This document shows positions 7,190-49,759 of a DNA stretch of 61,344 nt, in pieces. Source of the stretch: an uncultured Microbacteriaceae bacterium (GTDB taxonomy: Bacteria > Actinomycetota > Actinomycetes > Actinomycetales > Microbacteriaceae). The stretch is from assembly GCA_937872445.1 (NCBI GenBank), contig CALMSL010000016.1:1-61344 (forward strand), written 5' to 3'. The notes beneath the pieces are model-generated. The model saw nothing but the letters and a program-made list of their open reading frames with translations. It was not told where the DNA came from and did no database searches. Position 1 is the first letter of the stretch; each line of letters starts with the position of its first letter. Made by a program: the position numbers and the translations under genes.

Positions 7190-7948
7190 ATGCAGATTTC
7201 AGGATGCTCGGCGCTCGTCACGGGCGGTGCTTCAGGGCTCGGGCTGGCCACGGCGACGATGCTGGCCGAGGCGGGTGCGGACGTGGTCATCATCGATCTG
7301 CCGTCGTCGGGCGGCGCGGATGTTCCCGGTGTGACGTTCGTTCCCGCGGATGTCACGAATGAGGATCAGGTGCGCGCGGCGATCGCAATGGCCACGAAAC
7401 CGCTGCGGATCGTCGTGAACTGCGCGGGAATCGCGACGGCGGAGCGCGCGCTCGGCAAGGAAGGGCCGCAACCGCTCGATCACTTCGAGCGCGTCATCAG
7501 GGTGAACCTCATCGGCACGTTCAATGTGATCCGGCTCGCCTCCGAGGCGATGGCGGCAACCGAACCGGTTGGCGGTGAAGGCCAGGGCGAGTCCGAACGG
7601 GGCGTGATCGTGAACACCGCATCCGTGGCCGCGTTCGACGGCCAAATCGGCCAGGCCGCGTACTCGGCATCCAAGGGCGGGGTTGCCGCGATGACGCTGC
7701 CGCTTGCGCGGGAGCTCGCCGCGCGCTTCATCCGCGTCATGACCATTGCGCCGGGAACATTCGACACCCCGATGCTCGCGGCGCTGCCCCAGGCCGCGCG
7801 CGACTCGCTCGGCATGCAGGTACCGCATCCGTCGCGCCTCGGACGCCCGGAGGAGTACGCGGCGCTCGTCAGGCACATCGTGGAGAACTCGATGCTGAAC
7901 GGCGAGGTCATCCGCCTCGACGGCGCGATCCGCATGCAGCCCAAATAA
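7190..7948 (+). CDS. Short-chain dehydrogenase, 3-hydroxyacyl-CoA dehydrogenase type 2-like
   Basis: 252 residues, classical SDR. The cofactor motif VTGGASGLG is at residues 10-18, followed by an acidic IIDLP end of strand 2 (NAD preference); NCAG, then the catalytic Ser in [10 protein letters not shown] and Tyr/Lys in YSASKGG. The ASGLGLATA...DLPSSGG pattern resembles the 17beta-HSD10 / 3-hydroxyacyl-CoA dehydrogenase type 2 group, which oxidises 3-hydroxyacyl-CoA to the ketoacyl-CoA used by a thiolase such as the one encoded just upstream. A generic SDR role remains possible. Confidence 0.88.
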
Positions 7949-7955
7949 CAGCTGA

Positions 7956-8054
7956 CTTTCATCATTCAGGAGGTTGTGTGACGGAAGTTCCGAGAGCTTG
8001 CTTTTTCGAGCCACTCCTGCCCCTCCCACCCCATTCCCTCCTGAATGATGAAAG
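7956..8054. repeat. Inverted-repeat element, family B (copy B1), 99 bp
   Basis: Arms 7956-7973 (CTTTCATCATTCAGGAGG) and 8037-8054 are perfect 18-base inverted repeats enclosing a 63-base core. It begins 8 bases after the SDR stop codon and ends 15 bases before the methyltransferase start codon. One arm carries AGGAGG and the other CCTCCT, so a transcript would pair a Shine-Dalgarno-like with an anti-Shine-Dalgarno-like sequence. The core shares no obvious sequence with copy B2. Confidence 0.93.
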
Positions 8055-8069
8055 CCGACGGGGTAGCGG

Positions 8070-8861
8070 ATGCCGGTGATCGAGATCGTCGACGCGGCCG
8101 ACCCGCGGCTGGCCGACTTCGCCCGAGGCACGGATGTGCTGCTCAAGAACGGTCGTGGCGCGCACGGCCTCTACATTGCCGAGTCTGCCCTCGTGCTGGA
8201 ACGGGCGCTGCAGGCTGGACACCGTGTGCGTGCGGTGCTCACCCTCAGGGACACCGTCGTTGACGCTGCCGCTCTCGTCGGCCCCGAGGTGGCGGTGTTC
8301 ACCGGATCGATGGAACTGTTGGCGAAACTCACCGGCTATGAGCTTCATCGCGGGCTCATCGCGTCGATGGAACGCCCTGCGCTCCCGAACCCGGCCGACC
8401 TGCTTGCCGCGGCGCGGCGCGTGGTCATCCTCGAGAACGTCGTCGACCCGACGAACGTCGGCGCGATCTTCCGGTCGGTCGCGGCGATCGGTGCGGATGC
8501 GGTGCTCGTCACGCCGGGCAGCTCGGATCCGTTCTACCGGCGGGCGATCCGCGTCTCGATGGGCACCGTGCTGCAGGTGCCGTGGGCGCGCGTGGGGGAG
8601 TGGCCGGCGAACCGGAGGTTGCTCACAACGTCCGGATTTCACGTGGCGGCGCTCACCCCCGCCGTCGGTGCGGTGAGTCTGCGGGACTTCGCGGCCGATG
8701 CGCCGGAGCGGGTCGCACTCGTCGTCGGCACCGAAGGTGATGGCCTGACACCGGATGCCCTGGCGGCCGCAGACTCCCTGGTGCGAATCCCGATGCGACA
8801 CGGCATCGACAGCCTGAACGTCGCCGCCGCGGCCGCGGTGGCGATGTGGGCACTGTCCTGA
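8070..8861 (+). CDS. SpoU/TrmH-family RNA 2'-O-methyltransferase
   Basis: 263 residues. The three SPOUT knot motifs are all present: ENVVDPTNVGAIFRSVAAIGAD (about residues 127-148), VVGTEGDGLTP, and IPMRHGIDSLNVAAAAAVA at the C-terminus. The first 100 residues form the usual N-terminal substrate-binding part. SAM-dependent 2'-O-methylation of rRNA or tRNA is the family activity; the target nucleotide cannot be assigned. No clear ribosome binding site precedes ATG 8070. The gene sits between two copies of the same inverted-repeat element. Confidence 0.92.
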   Translation: MPVIEIVDAADPRLADFARGTDVLLKNGRGAHGLYIAESALVLERALQAGHRVRAVLTLRDTVVDAAALVGPEVAVFTGSMELLAKLTGYELHRGLIASMERPALPNPADLLAAARRVVILENVVDPTNVGAIFRSVAAIGADAVLVTPGSSDPFYRRAIRVSMGTVLQVPWARVGEWPANRRLLTTSGFHVAALTPAVGAVSLRDFAADAPERVALVVGTEGDGLTPDALAAADSLVRIPMRHGIDSLNVAAAAAVAMWALS

Positions 8862-8874
8862 CCCGCGCGGTGCG

Positions 8875-8982
8875 CTTTCATTATTCAGGAGGTGGCGGTG
8901 CGGATGATGCTGAAATGCTTAGTCTGACGCCCAGGAGCAACCGATTGTCACTTCTGCCACACCACCTCCTGAATGATGAAAG
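8875..8982. repeat. Inverted-repeat element, family B (copy B2), 108 bp
   Basis: Arms 8875-8895 and 8962-8982 are 21-base inverted repeats with one mismatch (TTATTCAGG against TTCATCATTCAGG-type in the partner) enclosing a 66-base core unrelated to that of B1. It lies 13 bases after the methyltransferase stop codon and 3 bases before the stop codon of the convergent ABC exporter gene, so it could also serve as a two-way transcript end. Confidence 0.93.
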
Positions 8983-8985
8983 GAA

Positions 8986-10905
8986 CTAAACGAGAAGTTG
9001 GTGCTGCGCGAGCTCCTTGTACAGGGGGGTCGAGGCAACGAGCTCGGAGTGGGTGCCGACGCCTACGACACGGCCATGGTCGAGCACGACGATCTGGTCC
9101 GAGTCGACGACCGTGGACAGCCGGTGCGCGATCACGATGAGCGTGCGGTTTTCGGCCACAGCGTCGATCGCCTTGCGCAGGAGTTGCTCGTTGAGCCCGT
9201 CGAGGCTCGAGGTGGATTCGTCGAGCAGCAGGATGGGCGGCGCCGCGAGCAGTGCGCGCGCGATCGCGAGCCGCTGGCGTTCGCCGCCGGAGAGCATGAC
9301 TCCGTCCTCGCCGACGGGCGCATCCAGCCCGAGCGGGTTGCGCTCGAGCACCTCGGTGAGGTTCACGGCATGGAGCACGTCGACGCACTGCTCGTCCGTC
9401 GCGTCCGGCGTCGCGAGGGTCAGGTTCTGCCGGATGCTGCCGGCGAGCACGGGCGCGTCCTGTTCGACGTAGCCGATCTGCGACCGCAGCTCTGCGCGGT
9501 CGAGGCTCCGGATGTCGACCCCGCCGAGGCGGACGACACCGGAATCCGGGTCGTAGAAGCGTTCGATGAGGGCCAGGATGGTGCTCTTGCCCGCGCCGGA
9601 TGGCCCGACAAGCGCGGTGCGCTTGCCACGGGCGGCACCGAAGGTGACGTCGTGCAAAGTCATGGGGGTGCCCCCTTCGAGACGATCGCCTTCGGCGATC
9701 TCCTCAGGGAGCGGATCGGTTGACGTTACCGCTCCCTGAGGAGGACGCGCAGCGGCCGTCTCGAAGGGAGCATTCTCGGCGGTCGGCTCCTCCGGGAGCG
9801 GCGCCGCGTACCCAAAAGACACCCCGTCGAAACTGATGGCAGCATCCGATGCGATCGACGCCGCAGGCTCGACGGCCGCATCAGCCTCGCCCTCTGCGGG
9901 CAGGTCGATGATCTCCTGGATGCGCCCGAGCGCGCCGAGCGCGGCGTTGACCGAGGTGACGGCGCCGAACGCCTGCCCGAGCGGCATGATCATGAGGAAC
10001 AGGAACAGGATGAACGCGACGAGCGACGCGACCGTGATCGCTCCGCTCGCGACCCGGAATCCGCCGACGCCGAGCACAACCAGGAACGACACCTGCATCG
10101 CGATGCCGGCGACCGGCACGACGAGGGCAGAGATTTTCGCAACCTTGATCCCCATCTTCCAGGCGCCGAGAGCATCCTCCTCGACGGCGCCAACTTCGCG
10201 GCCGGTCGCGTTGGCGGCACGCACGGTGCGGATGGCGCTGATCGCCCGCTCGACCGACGCCGCAAGGTCGCCGACGCGGTTCTGCGCCATTTGGCTCGCA
10301 ATCCGGATGCGCGCGGACAGCAGCGTCACGGTCACGACGGACACTGCGATCACGAGCACGGTGAGCCCGAGCAGCACGGGGTCGATGATGAGCATCGCGA
10401 TGAGCGCACCGATGAACGTGAGCGAACCGCCGATCGCTTCGACGAGCCCCTGGGTGAGGACCGCGCGGAGGAGCGTCGTGTCGCTGCCGACGCGCGAGAC
10501 GAGGTCCCCGGTGCGGCGCGTGTCGAATTCGCTGATCGGTAGGCGCAGCATCCGCCCGACGAGGCGTTTGCGGCTGGAGAGCACGACGCCCTCGCCGGTG
10601 CGCTGCAGCAAGTAGTGCTGGTAGCCGGAAATGAGCCCGGTCGCGACGACGAGACCGACAAGAATCCACACGAGAGCGCCAAGTCCCGTGCCCTTTTCGA
10701 CGACCGTGATGACCTGACTGACCAGGAGCGGCTGCGCGAGGGACGCTGCCGCGCCGAGGATGCTGAGCACGGTGACAAACGCGAGCACTTTCTTGTGCTC
10801 CATCAGGTACGGCATGAGTTGGCTGAACCGGGCGCGTGGCCCTTCGTCGCCTGGTGTGCCGCGCCGGCGAATTTTTCCGCGACGGTCCTGTGTCGTTGTG
10901 CTCAT
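8986..10905 (-). CDS. ABC exporter, fused membrane and ATPase domains
   Basis: 639 residues. Membrane segments lie within about 35-310, then the nucleotide-binding domain: A-loop Tyr366 (ISFDGVSFGY), Walker A GPSGAGKS (434-441), signature LSGGERQ (538-544), Walker B ILLLDE (558-563) and H-loop His594. A half-transporter of the MsbA/BmrA type, presumably acting as a homodimer; cargo unknown. Unusually, about 45 extra residues (roughly 368-413) separate the A-loop strand from TLHDVTF, and most are encoded by the palindromic repeat at 9673-9768. It is convergent with the methyltransferase gene. Confidence 0.95.
   Translation of the reverse strand: MSTTTQDRRGKIRRRGTPGDEGPRARFSQLMPYLMEHKKVLAFVTVLSILGAAASLAQPLLVSQVITVVEKGTGLGALVWILVGLVVATGLISGYQHYLLQRTGEGVVLSSRKRLVGRMLRLPISEFDTRRTGDLVSRVGSDTTLLRAVLTQGLVEAIGGSLTFIGALIAMLIIDPVLLGLTVLVIAVSVVTVTLLSARIRIASQMAQNRVGDLAASVERAISAIRTVRAANATGREVGAVEEDALGAWKMGIKVAKISALVVPVAGIAMQVSFLVVLGVGGFRVASGAITVASLVAFILFLFLMIMPLGQAFGAVTSVNAALGALGRIQEIIDLPAEGEADAAVEPAASIASDAAISFDGVSFGYAAPLPEEPTAENAPFETAAARPPQGAVTSTDPLPEEIAEGDRLEGGTPMTLHDVTFGAARGKRTALVGPSGAGKSTILALIERFYDPDSGVVRLGGVDIRSLDRAELRSQIGYVEQDAPVLAGSIRQNLTLATPDATDEQCVDVLHAVNLTEVLERNPLGLDAPVGEDGVMLSGGERQRLAIARALLAAPPILLLDESTSSLDGLNEQLLRKAIDAVAENRTLIVIAHRLSTVVDSDQIVVLDHGRVVGVGTHSELVASTPLYKELAQHQLLV
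9673..9768. repeat. Palindromic repeat, family A, double copy inside the ABC exporter gene (A2)
   Basis: Two head-to-head copies. Outer arms are CCCTTCGAGACG (9673-9684) and its complement (9757-9768); inner arms are CTCCTCAGGGAGCGG (9700-9714) and its complement (9729-9743). The reading frame runs through the element and encodes exporter residues about 380-411, rich in P, E, A and G. It lies in the loop between the first two beta strands of the ATPase domain. Confidence 0.9.
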
Positions 10906-29726: not shown

Positions 29727-30439
29727 TGTGTGGCTCCTTGGTCACTTGTGGTGGTCGTGGGGGGAGCGGTCAAGGGGTCGTGCCCAAGGATGCCCGCCGA
29801 ACCCGCGACCCCTTGACCGCTCCCCCCACGACCGTCCAATGTGATGTCCAGCAGGCGCGCGACGTGGCGCGCGAGGATGTCGGTTTCGACGTTGACGAGG
29901 TCGCCCGGCTGTTTCGTGCCGAGGGTGGTCACGGCGAGGGTCTCGGGGATGAGGGACACCTCGAACCAGTCGGAGTCACCGTCGCGGCCGACGGCGCTGA
30001 CGGTGAGGGAAACGCCATCCAGGGCGATGGAGCCCTTGCGCACGACGAGGGGCGCAAGCTCTGCGGCGAGACTGAAACGCACCACCCGCCAGGCGCTTCC
30101 CTCGGTGACGGCGAGCACCGTGGCTGTGCCGTCGATGTGGCCCTGCACGATGTGCCCGCCGAGCCGGTCGCCGACTTTCGTGGCCCGTTCGATGTTGACG
30201 GGGTCACCCGGCTGCGGATTCGTGAACGTGCTCATGCGGATGGTCTCGGCCATGACATCAGCGGTGAACCAGTCCGCGCCCTGGTCGACGACGGTCAGGC
30301 ACACACCGCTCACAGCAATCGAGTCGCCGTGGCCGGCATCCGATACCGCAAGCGGTGCGCGCACAGTCAGGCGTGCGGCATCGCTCGACTGTTTCCAGTC
30401 GACGACTTCGCCGAGTTCCTCGATAATTCCCGTGAACAT
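29723..30439 (-). CDS. ribE: Riboflavin synthase, alpha chain, with repeat-encoded C-terminal tail
   Basis: 238 residues. Two homologous barrel domains begin MFTGIIEELGEVV and GHIVQGHIDGTATV; dismutation of two lumazines gives riboflavin. Usual length is about 200-215 residues. The extra tail (about 203-229, rich in G, P and T, including GRGGSGQGVAGSAG) is encoded by the 81-base palindrome at 29753-29833. The frame remains open through it and keeps the ATGA overlap with ribBA. Core motifs are intact, so the enzyme is probably functional. Confidence 0.95.
   Translation of the reverse strand: MFTGIIEELGEVVDWKQSSDAARLTVRAPLAVSDAGHGDSIAVSGVCLTVVDQGADWFTADVMAETIRMSTFTNPQPGDPVNIERATKVGDRLGGHIVQGHIDGTATVLAVTEGSAWRVVRFSLAAELAPLVVRKGSIALDGVSLTVSAVGRDGDSDWFEVSLIPETLAVTTLGTKQPGDLVNVETDILARHVARLLDITLDGRGGSGQGVAGSAGILGHDPLTAPPTTTTSDQGATQ
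29753..29833. repeat. Long perfect palindrome, family D, inside the 3' end of ribE
   Basis: Arms 29753-29780 and 29806-29833 are perfect 28-base inverted repeats (the arm begins GGTCGTGGGGGGAGCGGTCA) with a 25-base loop. It is translated as part of ribE. The very stable GC-rich hairpin lies just before the ribBA start and could affect transcription, mRNA decay or translation of the last two rib genes. Confidence 0.95.
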
Positions 30440-31570: not shown

Positions 31571-31720
31571 CTCGTGCTTCCTTCCATCCGGACTGAGAAC
31601 CATCTTCAGTTCATAACCGTCGGTCCCGGAATTCCACCGGCTCAACCGTTCTCAGCCTCAGCCGATCGCGGGTCGCGGACTATCACCGCCGGTTCGGATT
31701 TTCACCGACCCCGGAGCACG
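31571..31720 (-). ncRNA. FMN riboswitch (RFN element) upstream of ribD
   Basis: On the minus strand the conserved RFN blocks occur in order: GGGGTCGGTGAAAATCC, GAACCGGCGGTGATAGTCC, GCGACCCGC, then GCCGGTGGAATTCCGG, GACCGACGGTTA and AGTCCGGATGGAAG. The outer stem pairs CGTGCT (31715-31720) with AGCACG (31571-31576). It ends 80 bases before the ribD start. FMN binding is expected to shut off the ribD-ribE-ribBA-ribH operon, by translation or transcription control; an expression-platform hairpin was not resolved. Confidence 0.96.
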
Positions 31721-31765
31721 TACTTCCTGAAGTCTACCGCGCTGGGCAACCGAATCGCCGAGCCC

Positions 31766-47926: not shown

Positions 47927-48328
47927 ATGGTTGATGTTGATTGGGACGGCCTGCGGGACATCGCGAAGGAAGCGATTGACCACGCCTACGTCCCGTACTC
48001 CAATTTTCCGGTCGGCGTCGCGGCGATGGTGGATGATGGCCGCGTGATTTCCGGCTGCAACGTGGAGAACGCCTCCTACGGCCTCACGCTGTGCGCGGAG
48101 TGCGCGCTCGTGTCCAGCCTGCACATGACCGGCGGCGGCAAGCTCGTCGCGTTCACGTGCGTCGACGGTCACGGCAACATCCTGATGCCGTGCGGACGGT
48201 GCCGCCAACTGCTGTTCGAACACTCCGCTCCCGGCATGGTGCTGGAAACCGTGTCCGGAATCAAGACGATCGACGAAGTCATCCCGGATGCCTTCGGCCC
48301 GCGCACCCTGGAGGAGTACCGAGCGTGA
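47927..48328 (+). CDS. cdd: Cytidine deaminase
   Basis: 133 residues from ATG 47927, with GAGG 6 bases upstream; GTG 47915, overlapping the MFS stop, would add 4 residues. Catalytic CNVENASYGLTLCAEC and MPCGRCRQLL hold the zinc Cys ligands and the proton-shuttling Glu. It deaminates (deoxy)cytidine to (deoxy)uridine. It overlaps deoA by GTGA. Confidence 0.96.
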   Translation: MVDVDWDGLRDIAKEAIDHAYVPYSNFPVGVAAMVDDGRVISGCNVENASYGLTLCAECALVSSLHMTGGGKLVAFTCVDGHGNILMPCGRCRQLLFEHSAPGMVLETVSGIKTIDEVIPDAFGPRTLEEYRA

Positions 48329-49626
48329 CAACTGTTGAACCGTTTGACACGGTGGACCTCATTCACGCCAAGCGCGACGGCGCCAAACTTTCGAGTGCGC
48401 AGGTGTCCTGGCTCGTGGACGCCTACACTCGCGGCTACGTCGGCGACGAGCAGATGGCTGCGATGGCCATGGCGATTTTCCTCAACGGAATGGATCGGGA
48501 CGAAGTGCGCGACCTGACCCTCGCGATGATCGACTCCGGTGAGCGGATGTCGTTCGACACTCTGTCGAAGAAGACCACGGACAAGCACTCCACGGGTGGC
48601 GTGGGCGACAAGATCACGTTGCCCCTCGCGCCGCTCGTGGCATCCTTCGGCGTCGCGGTCCCTCAGCTGTCGGGGCGCGGGCTCGGCCACACCGGCGGCA
48701 CGCTCGACAAGCTCGAGAGCATCCCCGGCTGGCAGGCCGACCTCAGCGCGGAGGAGATGCGTGCCCAGCTCGAATCCGTGGGCGCCGTCATTTGCGCGGC
48801 GGGGGCGACTCTCGCTCCGGCGGATAAAAAGCTGTACGCGCTTCGGGACATCACCGGCACCGTGGAGTCGATCCCGCTCATCGCGTCCTCGATCATGAGC
48901 AAGAAGATCGCCGAGGGCACGCACTCGCTCGTGCTGGACGTGAAGTTCGGGTCCGGCGCGTTCATGCAGGACCCTGAGCGCAGCCGACAATTGGCCGAAA
49001 CGATGGTGGCGCTCGGCACGGATGCGGGTGTGGTCACGACCGCGCTCCTCACGAACATGAATGTGCCGCTCGGGCTCGCGATCGGCAATGCGAACGAGGT
49101 CCGCGAATCGGTTGAGGTGCTCGCGGGCGGCGGGCCGGCGGATGTCGTCGAGCTGACTCTCGCGCTCGCGCGGGAGATGCTCGCGTCGGCCGGTCAGCCG
49201 GATGCGGACGTCGAGGGCGCGCTGAAGGACGGGCGCGCGATGGACACCTGGCGGGCGATGATCGCCGCTCAGCACGGCGACCCGGATGCGCCGCTTCCGG
49301 TGGCGAAGGAGTCCCACGTGGTCACGGCGGATCGGGAGGGCATCCTTGTGGAGCAGAAGGCGCTGCCGTTCGGCATCGCGGCGTGGCGCCTGGGCGCGGG
49401 CAGGGCGCGCAAGCAGGATCCTGTGCAACACTCGGCGGGCATCGACCTGCACGCGAAGCCGGGGGATGCGGTGACGAAGGGTCAGCCGCTGTTCACGCTC
49501 AGCGCGGACGAACCGGCGCGCTTCGAGCGGGCGCTGGAAGCGCTCGAGGGTGCCTACCGCATCGGCTCGAAGGGCGACGAGGTGCACGACGGCGGTCCCC
49601 TCATCGCGGATCGAATCACCGCCTAG
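48325..49626 (+). CDS. deoA: Thymidine (pyrimidine-nucleoside) phosphorylase
   Basis: 433 residues from GTG 48325, within the cdd stop overlap. The phosphate-binding signature SKKTTDKHSTGGVGDKITLPLAP and SGRGLGHTGGTLDKLESIPGW are diagnostic of the nucleoside phosphorylase family II. It splits thymidine or uridine with phosphate. Last gene of the nucleoside operon; an inverted-repeat element begins 35 bases after its stop. Confidence 0.96.
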   Translation: MTTVEPFDTVDLIHAKRDGAKLSSAQVSWLVDAYTRGYVGDEQMAAMAMAIFLNGMDRDEVRDLTLAMIDSGERMSFDTLSKKTTDKHSTGGVGDKITLPLAPLVASFGVAVPQLSGRGLGHTGGTLDKLESIPGWQADLSAEEMRAQLESVGAVICAAGATLAPADKKLYALRDITGTVESIPLIASSIMSKKIAEGTHSLVLDVKFGSGAFMQDPERSRQLAETMVALGTDAGVVTTALLTNMNVPLGLAIGNANEVRESVEVLAGGGPADVVELTLALAREMLASAGQPDADVEGALKDGRAMDTWRAMIAAQHGDPDAPLPVAKESHVVTADREGILVEQKALPFGIAAWRLGAGRARKQDPVQHSAGIDLHAKPGDAVTKGQPLFTLSADEPARFERALEALEGAYRIGSKGDEVHDGGPLIADRITA

Positions 49627-49661: not shown

Positions 49662-49759
49662 CTCGAAAATTCAGGAATCCGCGTCGACGGCAAGATCGGG
49701 AATCCCGGAATCATCGTGAATGCGGATGCCCGCGCGACGCGAGTTCCTGAATTTTCGAG
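49662..49759. repeat. Inverted-repeat element, family C, 98 bp
   Basis: Arms CTCGAAAATTCAGGAA (49662-49677) and TTCCTGAATTTTCGAG (49744-49759) are perfect; the match extends inward with CGCGTCG on one side and CGACGCG on the other, after a 2-base mismatch. Size, inverted arms and the ATTCAGGA core resemble family B, and it too lies just after a stop codon (deoA). Confidence 0.9.

Follow-up and report, generated by a model that had tools for sequence, protein, structure and literature searches.

Short dispersed repeats in bacteria are usually taken for transposon relics or RNA hairpins. REPIN/RAYT repeats are inverted pairs of short repeats that lie between genes, with several families per genome. 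MITEs and foldback elements have inverted ends and no coding capacity, and integron attC sites have GTTRRRY/RYYYAAC ends and are served by an integrase. At the lac, gal and ara operators, paired protein sites with helical phasing form short DNA loops. The looping of these three operators is named in an account of the internal eliminated sequences (IESs) of Paramecium (PMC3464196), which describes IESs as unique-copy sequences with short conserved ends, mostly <150 bp long, with a size period of ~10 bp that is explained by DNA loop formation between the ends. IESs are eukaryotic, are excised during development and have their main size peak at 26–28 bp (PMC3464196). The TAACTGA repeats of Beggiatoaceae, as described in PMC4679880, are dispersed intergenic sets of direct heptamers near start codons. 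In the bacterial family described here, F1, rotational spacing is the only conserved internal property. It recurs in two genera and in a sister family related in sequence, and points to a DNA-bridging protein at gene ends.

Two inverted-repeat elements belong to a dispersed family

The window (the whole stretch of DNA analysed, 61,344 nt, from an uncultured Microbacteriaceae bacterium) contains two F1 elements, neither assigned a strand: B1 (7956–8054, 99 bp) and B2 (8875–8982, 108 bp). Each has a left box on the plus strand (7956–7973 in B1, 8875–8892 in B2) and a right box on the minus strand (8037–8054 and 8965–8982, respectively). All four boxes match the 18-nt arm without mismatches, apart from the left box of B2, which has one. 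The arms of B1 are 100% complementary across 18 nt, and those of B2 are 83% complementary across 30 nt, with a single mismatch within the first 18. B1 starts 7 nt after the stop (7948) of a short-chain dehydrogenase (SDR) gene (7190–7948, plus strand; PF00106). Between the elements lies a SpoU-type RNA methyltransferase gene (8070–8861, plus strand; PF00588), and B2 starts 13 nt after its stop (8861). B2 occupies the gap between this gene and a convergent ABC-transporter gene (8986–10905, minus strand; PF00664 and PF00005), and ends 3 nt from the stop of the latter (8986).

As RNA, B1 and B2 folded 6–7 sd below shuffled sequences, as any inverted repeat would. The F1 box contains AGGAGG. No intrinsic-terminator pattern (a hairpin and then a T run) occurred within 7700–9300, and an Rfam search of the window at gathering score gave no match at B1 or B2. 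The sole Rfam match was an FMN riboswitch (31571–31722, minus strand). Elsewhere in the window, an 81-bp inverted repeat with a 28-nt arm lies at 29753–29833, and is apparently also present in G003 (L174, 2919–2999).

The 18-nt arm matched 38 places at ≤3 mismatches in its own genome (3.06 Mb), and the reversed control pattern matched none. Given this control the count is not chance, and B1 and B2 are members of a dispersed family. The conserved inverted ends noted in the preliminary description therefore mark a real family, and searching with the arm, as it had proposed, returned many paired copies in both the own and related genomes. The own loci fetched held 13 inward-facing pairs of 49–119 bp, plus several lone arms.

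Within the genus, four of eight genomes carry F1 (G000, G002, G003 and G005). Three others (G001, G004 and G007) had no arm at ≤2 mismatches, and G006 had two isolated arms, each with 2 mismatches. Exact arms were found in 9 of 398 genomes of the host family and 3 of 85 genera: four genomes in the window's genus, four in genus g105 and one, at a single place, in g101. Carriers also include G113, G175 and G341. Two g105 genomes, G225 and G269, are without F1. A scan of species genomes matched Cryobacterium-labelled MAGs, a Micrococcales MAG, MAG CAN_BIN33 and Marisediminicola senii (strain SM7_A14); five more single-arm matches in unrelated taxa look like chance. A limited search of open papers found no published report of the family.

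Viral or plasmid carriage was considered and rejected. Ten viral contigs had a single arm each, in one recurring coding-like context of 40–46% GC (judged by eye), a plasmid search gave only two weak matches (both E 0.7), and a phage search with F1 gave none. A box-like sequence also lies just upstream of an smpB-like gene (L025, 2400; L033, 1501; L053, 2079), including in G006, which is otherwise without F1.

Boxes are near invariant and cores are free

In the window's genus the arm is a box of 17–18 nt, near invariant except at position 8. Beyond the box come 9-bp repeats (TGkGRC), which occupy positions 22–27 and 31–36 and, more weakly, 40–45. The repeats were counted in 56 and 30 of 70 arms, and longer elements more often hold a third. 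They are almost absent from G113 (1 and 0 of 86 arms). Elements in g105 are without them, and their boxes often form arrays, in which several right-facing boxes are followed by a core and then by several left-facing boxes. Every multi-box cluster that we counted had inward-facing boxes, with no divergent neighbour pairs.

Cores were compared among the 25 pairs that are ≥95 bp long, and yielded just two 10-nt matches. The cores compared are thus unrelated between elements, as first described, but they do not begin directly at the 18-mer: on each side another ~18 nt carries the 9-bp repeats in the window's genus. At positions 18–21, the left and right arms of one element agree with each other more closely than with arms from other elements in that species (0.743 compared to 0.591), and no such excess was found at positions 22–36. 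Conservation extends weakly outward from the ends (T at −3 in 61%, A or G at −1 in 92%).

Element lengths are quantised in helical turns

F1 lengths are quantised, in steps of about one DNA helix turn, a property new in this analysis. The preliminary description had called B1 and B2 similar in length; the lengths are really discrete and about one turn apart, which two copies could not reveal. In the window's genus, lengths cluster at 79, 89, 99, 108 and 119 bp. The 39 distinct pairs from this genus, taken from the loci fetched (which include the majority of G002 and G005 arms, though not every one), gave a best period of 9.7 with R 0.70, a value reached by none of 5000 null sets under either of two nulls.

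In a second genus, the length clusters run from 78 to 183 bp with the same phase. Outside the window's genus there were 26 pairs, 25 of them in g105 with its named members and one in g101; their best period was 10.40 (R 0.81). At 10.5 bp, the phase was 4.0 for the genus set and 4.2 for the outside set. The first G113 sample was partly picked around known arms. A further 400 kb of G113 was fetched afterwards, not selected for arms, and contained 8 new pairs of 120, 132, 141, 149, 149, 151, 151 and 162 bp, with a phase of 4.0 (test against the predicted phase, p 0.001). Pooling all pairs at one per site, with 7 G002 orthologues removed (n = 66), gave a best period of 10.30 (R 0.69; 0 of 2000 nulls).

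Spacing between boxes facing the same direction behaved similarly. The 68 spacings fell only at 20–23, 31–36, 43–45, 54–55, 64–66 and 74 bp, with a best period of 10.60 (R 0.87); spacings of 33 bp are common among these tandem boxes. Without the 31–36 class (n = 24) the best period was 10.75 (R 0.85; 0 of 2000 nulls). Modular growth may contribute to the lengths in the window's genus, where longer elements more often hold a third 9-bp repeat. The 9-bp repeats do not explain the phase in G113, where they are almost absent.

Boxes persist at orthologous sites while occupancy varies

Compared to their orthologues in G002, the boxes of B1 and B2 keep 17, 16, 17 and 17 of 18 bases, and the cores are within ~1.2 sd of shuffled sequence. 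The B1 site in G002 holds an F1 element of 108 bp rather than 99 bp (boxes 17 and 16 of 18), and the B2 site one of 99 bp rather than 108 bp (17 and 17 of 18). The B1 site holds a different inverted repeat in G003, and in G006 the gap is almost empty. At the B2 site, the element is nearly unchanged in G003. Thus, elements that are retained preserve their boxes but not their core.

Other sites differ in occupancy. At the L015 site, G000 and G002 have elements (109 and 44 bp, respectively), while G003 and G006 have an empty site; the L016 site in G003 has a decayed remnant of 41 nt; the L021 site is filled only in G000 and G002; and at the L065 site G003 and G002 have F1, and G000 the sister family F3. 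Elements are therefore gained, lost and exchanged. The preliminary description had named fixation at the same loci in all relatives as a possible refutation, and this was not seen. It had also suggested comparing empty and occupied sites for target duplications. Empty sites do exist, but the signal is weak at best: z was 2.4 for 3-mers (the best over 25 offsets) and ≤1.4 for 4-mers and longer. At B1, compared with G006 and G003, the intergenic sequence is too diverged for a target duplication to be read.

At the empty sites in G006, and in G003 at the L015 site, both convergent genes end inside one CTAG. Their filled counterparts have separate stops (L140, L139, L232 and L244; sites of L015, L021 and L065). 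In G004, which is without F1, the same gene gaps hold other inverted repeats with arms like AGTTGCCCACTT and GAGTCGGGAG (L123, L128 and L142).

Elements lie at gene ends

The preliminary description placed both elements within 15 bases of a stop codon, and this extends from B1 and B2 to the family: 30 of 37 pairs have an end ≤15 nt from a roughly called stop codon (11 of 13 in G000, 15 of 18 in G002 and 4 of 6 in G005). In G113, 14 clusters occupied 7 convergent, 6 tandem and 1 divergent gaps, against a background of 63 convergent, 201 tandem and 67 divergent gene pairs. Lone boxes were excluded from both counts, and genes were called by a simple script based on GC frame rather than by a trained gene finder.

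Single boxes also occur, one upstream of an M20 peptidase gene and another in the gap that separates genes for a pyridine-nucleotide oxidoreductase and a phosphorylase; both are kept in G000, G003 and G002. In the two single-box genes inspected, the start codon lies ~33 nt or more downstream of the box, on which ground we rejected a ribosome-binding role for it. We also rejected a larger mobile unit enclosing a gene. At the M20-peptidase locus the boxes are 1.3 kb apart around an ordinary peptidase, and the outer one is the conserved single box at the gene start.

Sister families

F3, with arms around AATTCAGGAA, occupies 26 places in G000, G002 and G003, excluding one F1 place that matched too. 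Within a search range of 68–98 bp, all 26 fell into three length classes: 73–75 (15), 85–86 (7) and 96 bp (4). Its best period is 11.25, with G000 and G002 orthologues not separated. The window has one F3 copy (49662–49759, no strand, outer limits set by eye), which lies ~40 bp past the end of an open reading frame (48091–49626) and measures 86 bp from inner motif to inner motif (49668–49753).

F2 (GTCCNAAATGAAGG) has its inner motifs 76–77 bp apart at 28 of 29 places and 64 bp apart at one (search range 63–93), and is therefore of fixed length, with no period. Judged by eye, the F2 cores seem unrelated. Not all copies are at gene ends: one is in an apparently divergent gap (by eye) and one is beside a tRNA gene. 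Example copies are at L009 (2293–2379), L043 and L167 (315–405). Two copies are identical between G003 and G002 (L370/L365 and L167/L371) and sit in homologous flanks (93.5% over 1438 bp and 99% over 363 bp). These flank identities exceed the 76–84% seen at most other sites between G000 and G002.

Discussion

What gives rise to a family in which ends and length steps are conserved and the cores compared are not? We propose that B1 and B2 are paired boxes for a predicted sequence-specific DNA-binding protein that would bridge them in place, a reading that we consider about evenly balanced between right and wrong. The protein, or its oligomer, would keep both boxes of a pair on the same face of the helix, and the bridge would span a mini-loop of roughly 80–180 bp. 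With both boxes held on one face, box sequence, inward orientation and rotational distance would be under selection and the core would not. That boxes are kept while cores drift argues for selection at each site, and the helical spacing, present in two genera as well as in F3, suggests that what is selected is double-stranded DNA whose two ends are engaged simultaneously. Because the elements occupy the space that separates a stop codon from the following gene, in many cases a convergent one, their likeliest job is that of a transcription boundary, which might act as a roadblock or terminator at gene ends; we infer this role from position.

Several results count against bridging. The window's genus alone is fitted better by 9.65–9.7 than by 10.5, its five shortest pairs (44, 49, 52, 58 and 72 bp) include three that are >2.5 bp off phase, F3 is fitted best by 11.25, and F2 has no period. 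The excess match between an element's own arms at positions 18–21 also fits a hairpin or arm conversion. Finally, since some close congeners lack the family, its function must be dispensable.

As the main alternative, F1 could comprise non-autonomous transposable elements of the MITE or foldback kind, in which a transposase synapses the two ends so that only whole-turn lengths are moved, and which collect at gene ends where insertion is tolerated. The patchy spread within the genus, the variable occupancy (the L015, L016 and L065 sites), the weak outward extension of the ends and the resemblance of tandem inward boxes to transposon ends all fit, and short transposons are known to have phased lengths (PMC3464196). 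Of the mobile-element suggestion in the preliminary description, the differing presence between relatives stands. Transposed copies should, however, share cores, and the cores compared do not; the target-duplication signal is weak; and Y1_Tnp, the only transposase type searched for, is missing from all eight genus genomes. Plasmid and phage searches gave little or nothing, and the F2 copies identical between G003 and G002 are in homologous flanks and not at new sites. We noticed no autonomous element with F1 ends in the stretches read, from draft assemblies that break at repeats. Moreover, kept boxes with randomised cores need selection in place, beyond the time of movement. We therefore regard transposition as unlikely, and prefer in-place bridging: a synapse accounts for the helical steps, as in Paramecium IESs (PMC3464196), but it also predicts shared cores, which are not seen in the pairs compared, and target duplications, which are not clear.

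An RNA hairpin at the 3′ ends of mRNAs (a terminator, a stabiliser or a sequestered ribosome-binding site), with incidental DNA spacing, would account for the gene-end position, the strong folds of B1 and B2, the own-arm match at positions 18–21 and the AGGAGG in the box. We judge it improbable. A hairpin predicts stem pairing, yet the own-arm excess is absent at positions 22–36, and neither a terminator pattern nor an Rfam match was found at these elements. RNA predicts neither steps of ~10.5 bp common to two genera nor phased boxes facing the same direction, and the purely RNA or ribosome-binding role first suggested is disfavoured for the same reason. Local duplication, in which lengths are quantised only because repeat units of 9–33 bp are added or removed, and geometry is not selected, draws on the 9-bp repeats of the window's genus, their excess in longer elements and the many 33-bp spacings of tandem boxes. 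This seems quite improbable, as G113 has the same phase without the 9-bp repeats, the period persists outside the 31–36 class, and orthologues with unrelated cores remain in the favoured length classes. The observation in the preliminary description is confirmed, and its interpretation is partly supported.

In-place bridging may have wider scope. F1 and F3, which are related, and F2, with its fixed length, could belong to a class of bacterial chromosomal elements whose conserved feature is geometry: box pairs and arrays kept at whole helical turns by a dedicated bridging protein, which would form mini-loops at gene ends and so separate transcription units. This is a tentative proposal, and we lean somewhat against it. 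F1 itself offers a natural spacing series for in vivo tests of DNA looping, and a lead on how compact actinobacterial genomes separate adjacent transcription units.

Among known systems, integron attC sites have ends that differ from those of F1 by eye. The TAACTGA repeats resemble F1 in being dispersed and intergenic, and differ in that F1 consists of inverted 18-mers near stops. F1 is like REPIN/RAYT repeats in its inverted intergenic pairs and multiple families, and unlike them in its unrelated cores and quantised lengths; we rejected REPIN/RAYT identity on the absence of the RAYT transposase (Y1_Tnp, PF01797) from all eight genomes of the window's genus, compared to its presence in 5 of 14 in the control rings. 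With MITEs and foldback elements F1 shares inverted, non-coding ends and, in the second genus, tandem end repeats, but the cores compared are not shared, target duplication is not clear and no parent was seen. The Paramecium IESs (PMC3464196) likewise combine periodic lengths with free cores; F1 is not known to be excised, and has longer boxes, tandem boxes and a gene-end position. F1 also has the helical phasing between sites that characterises a DNA-loop operator pair. Whereas the lac, gal and ara operators each serve one promoter, F1 lies at gene ends in many places in the genome.
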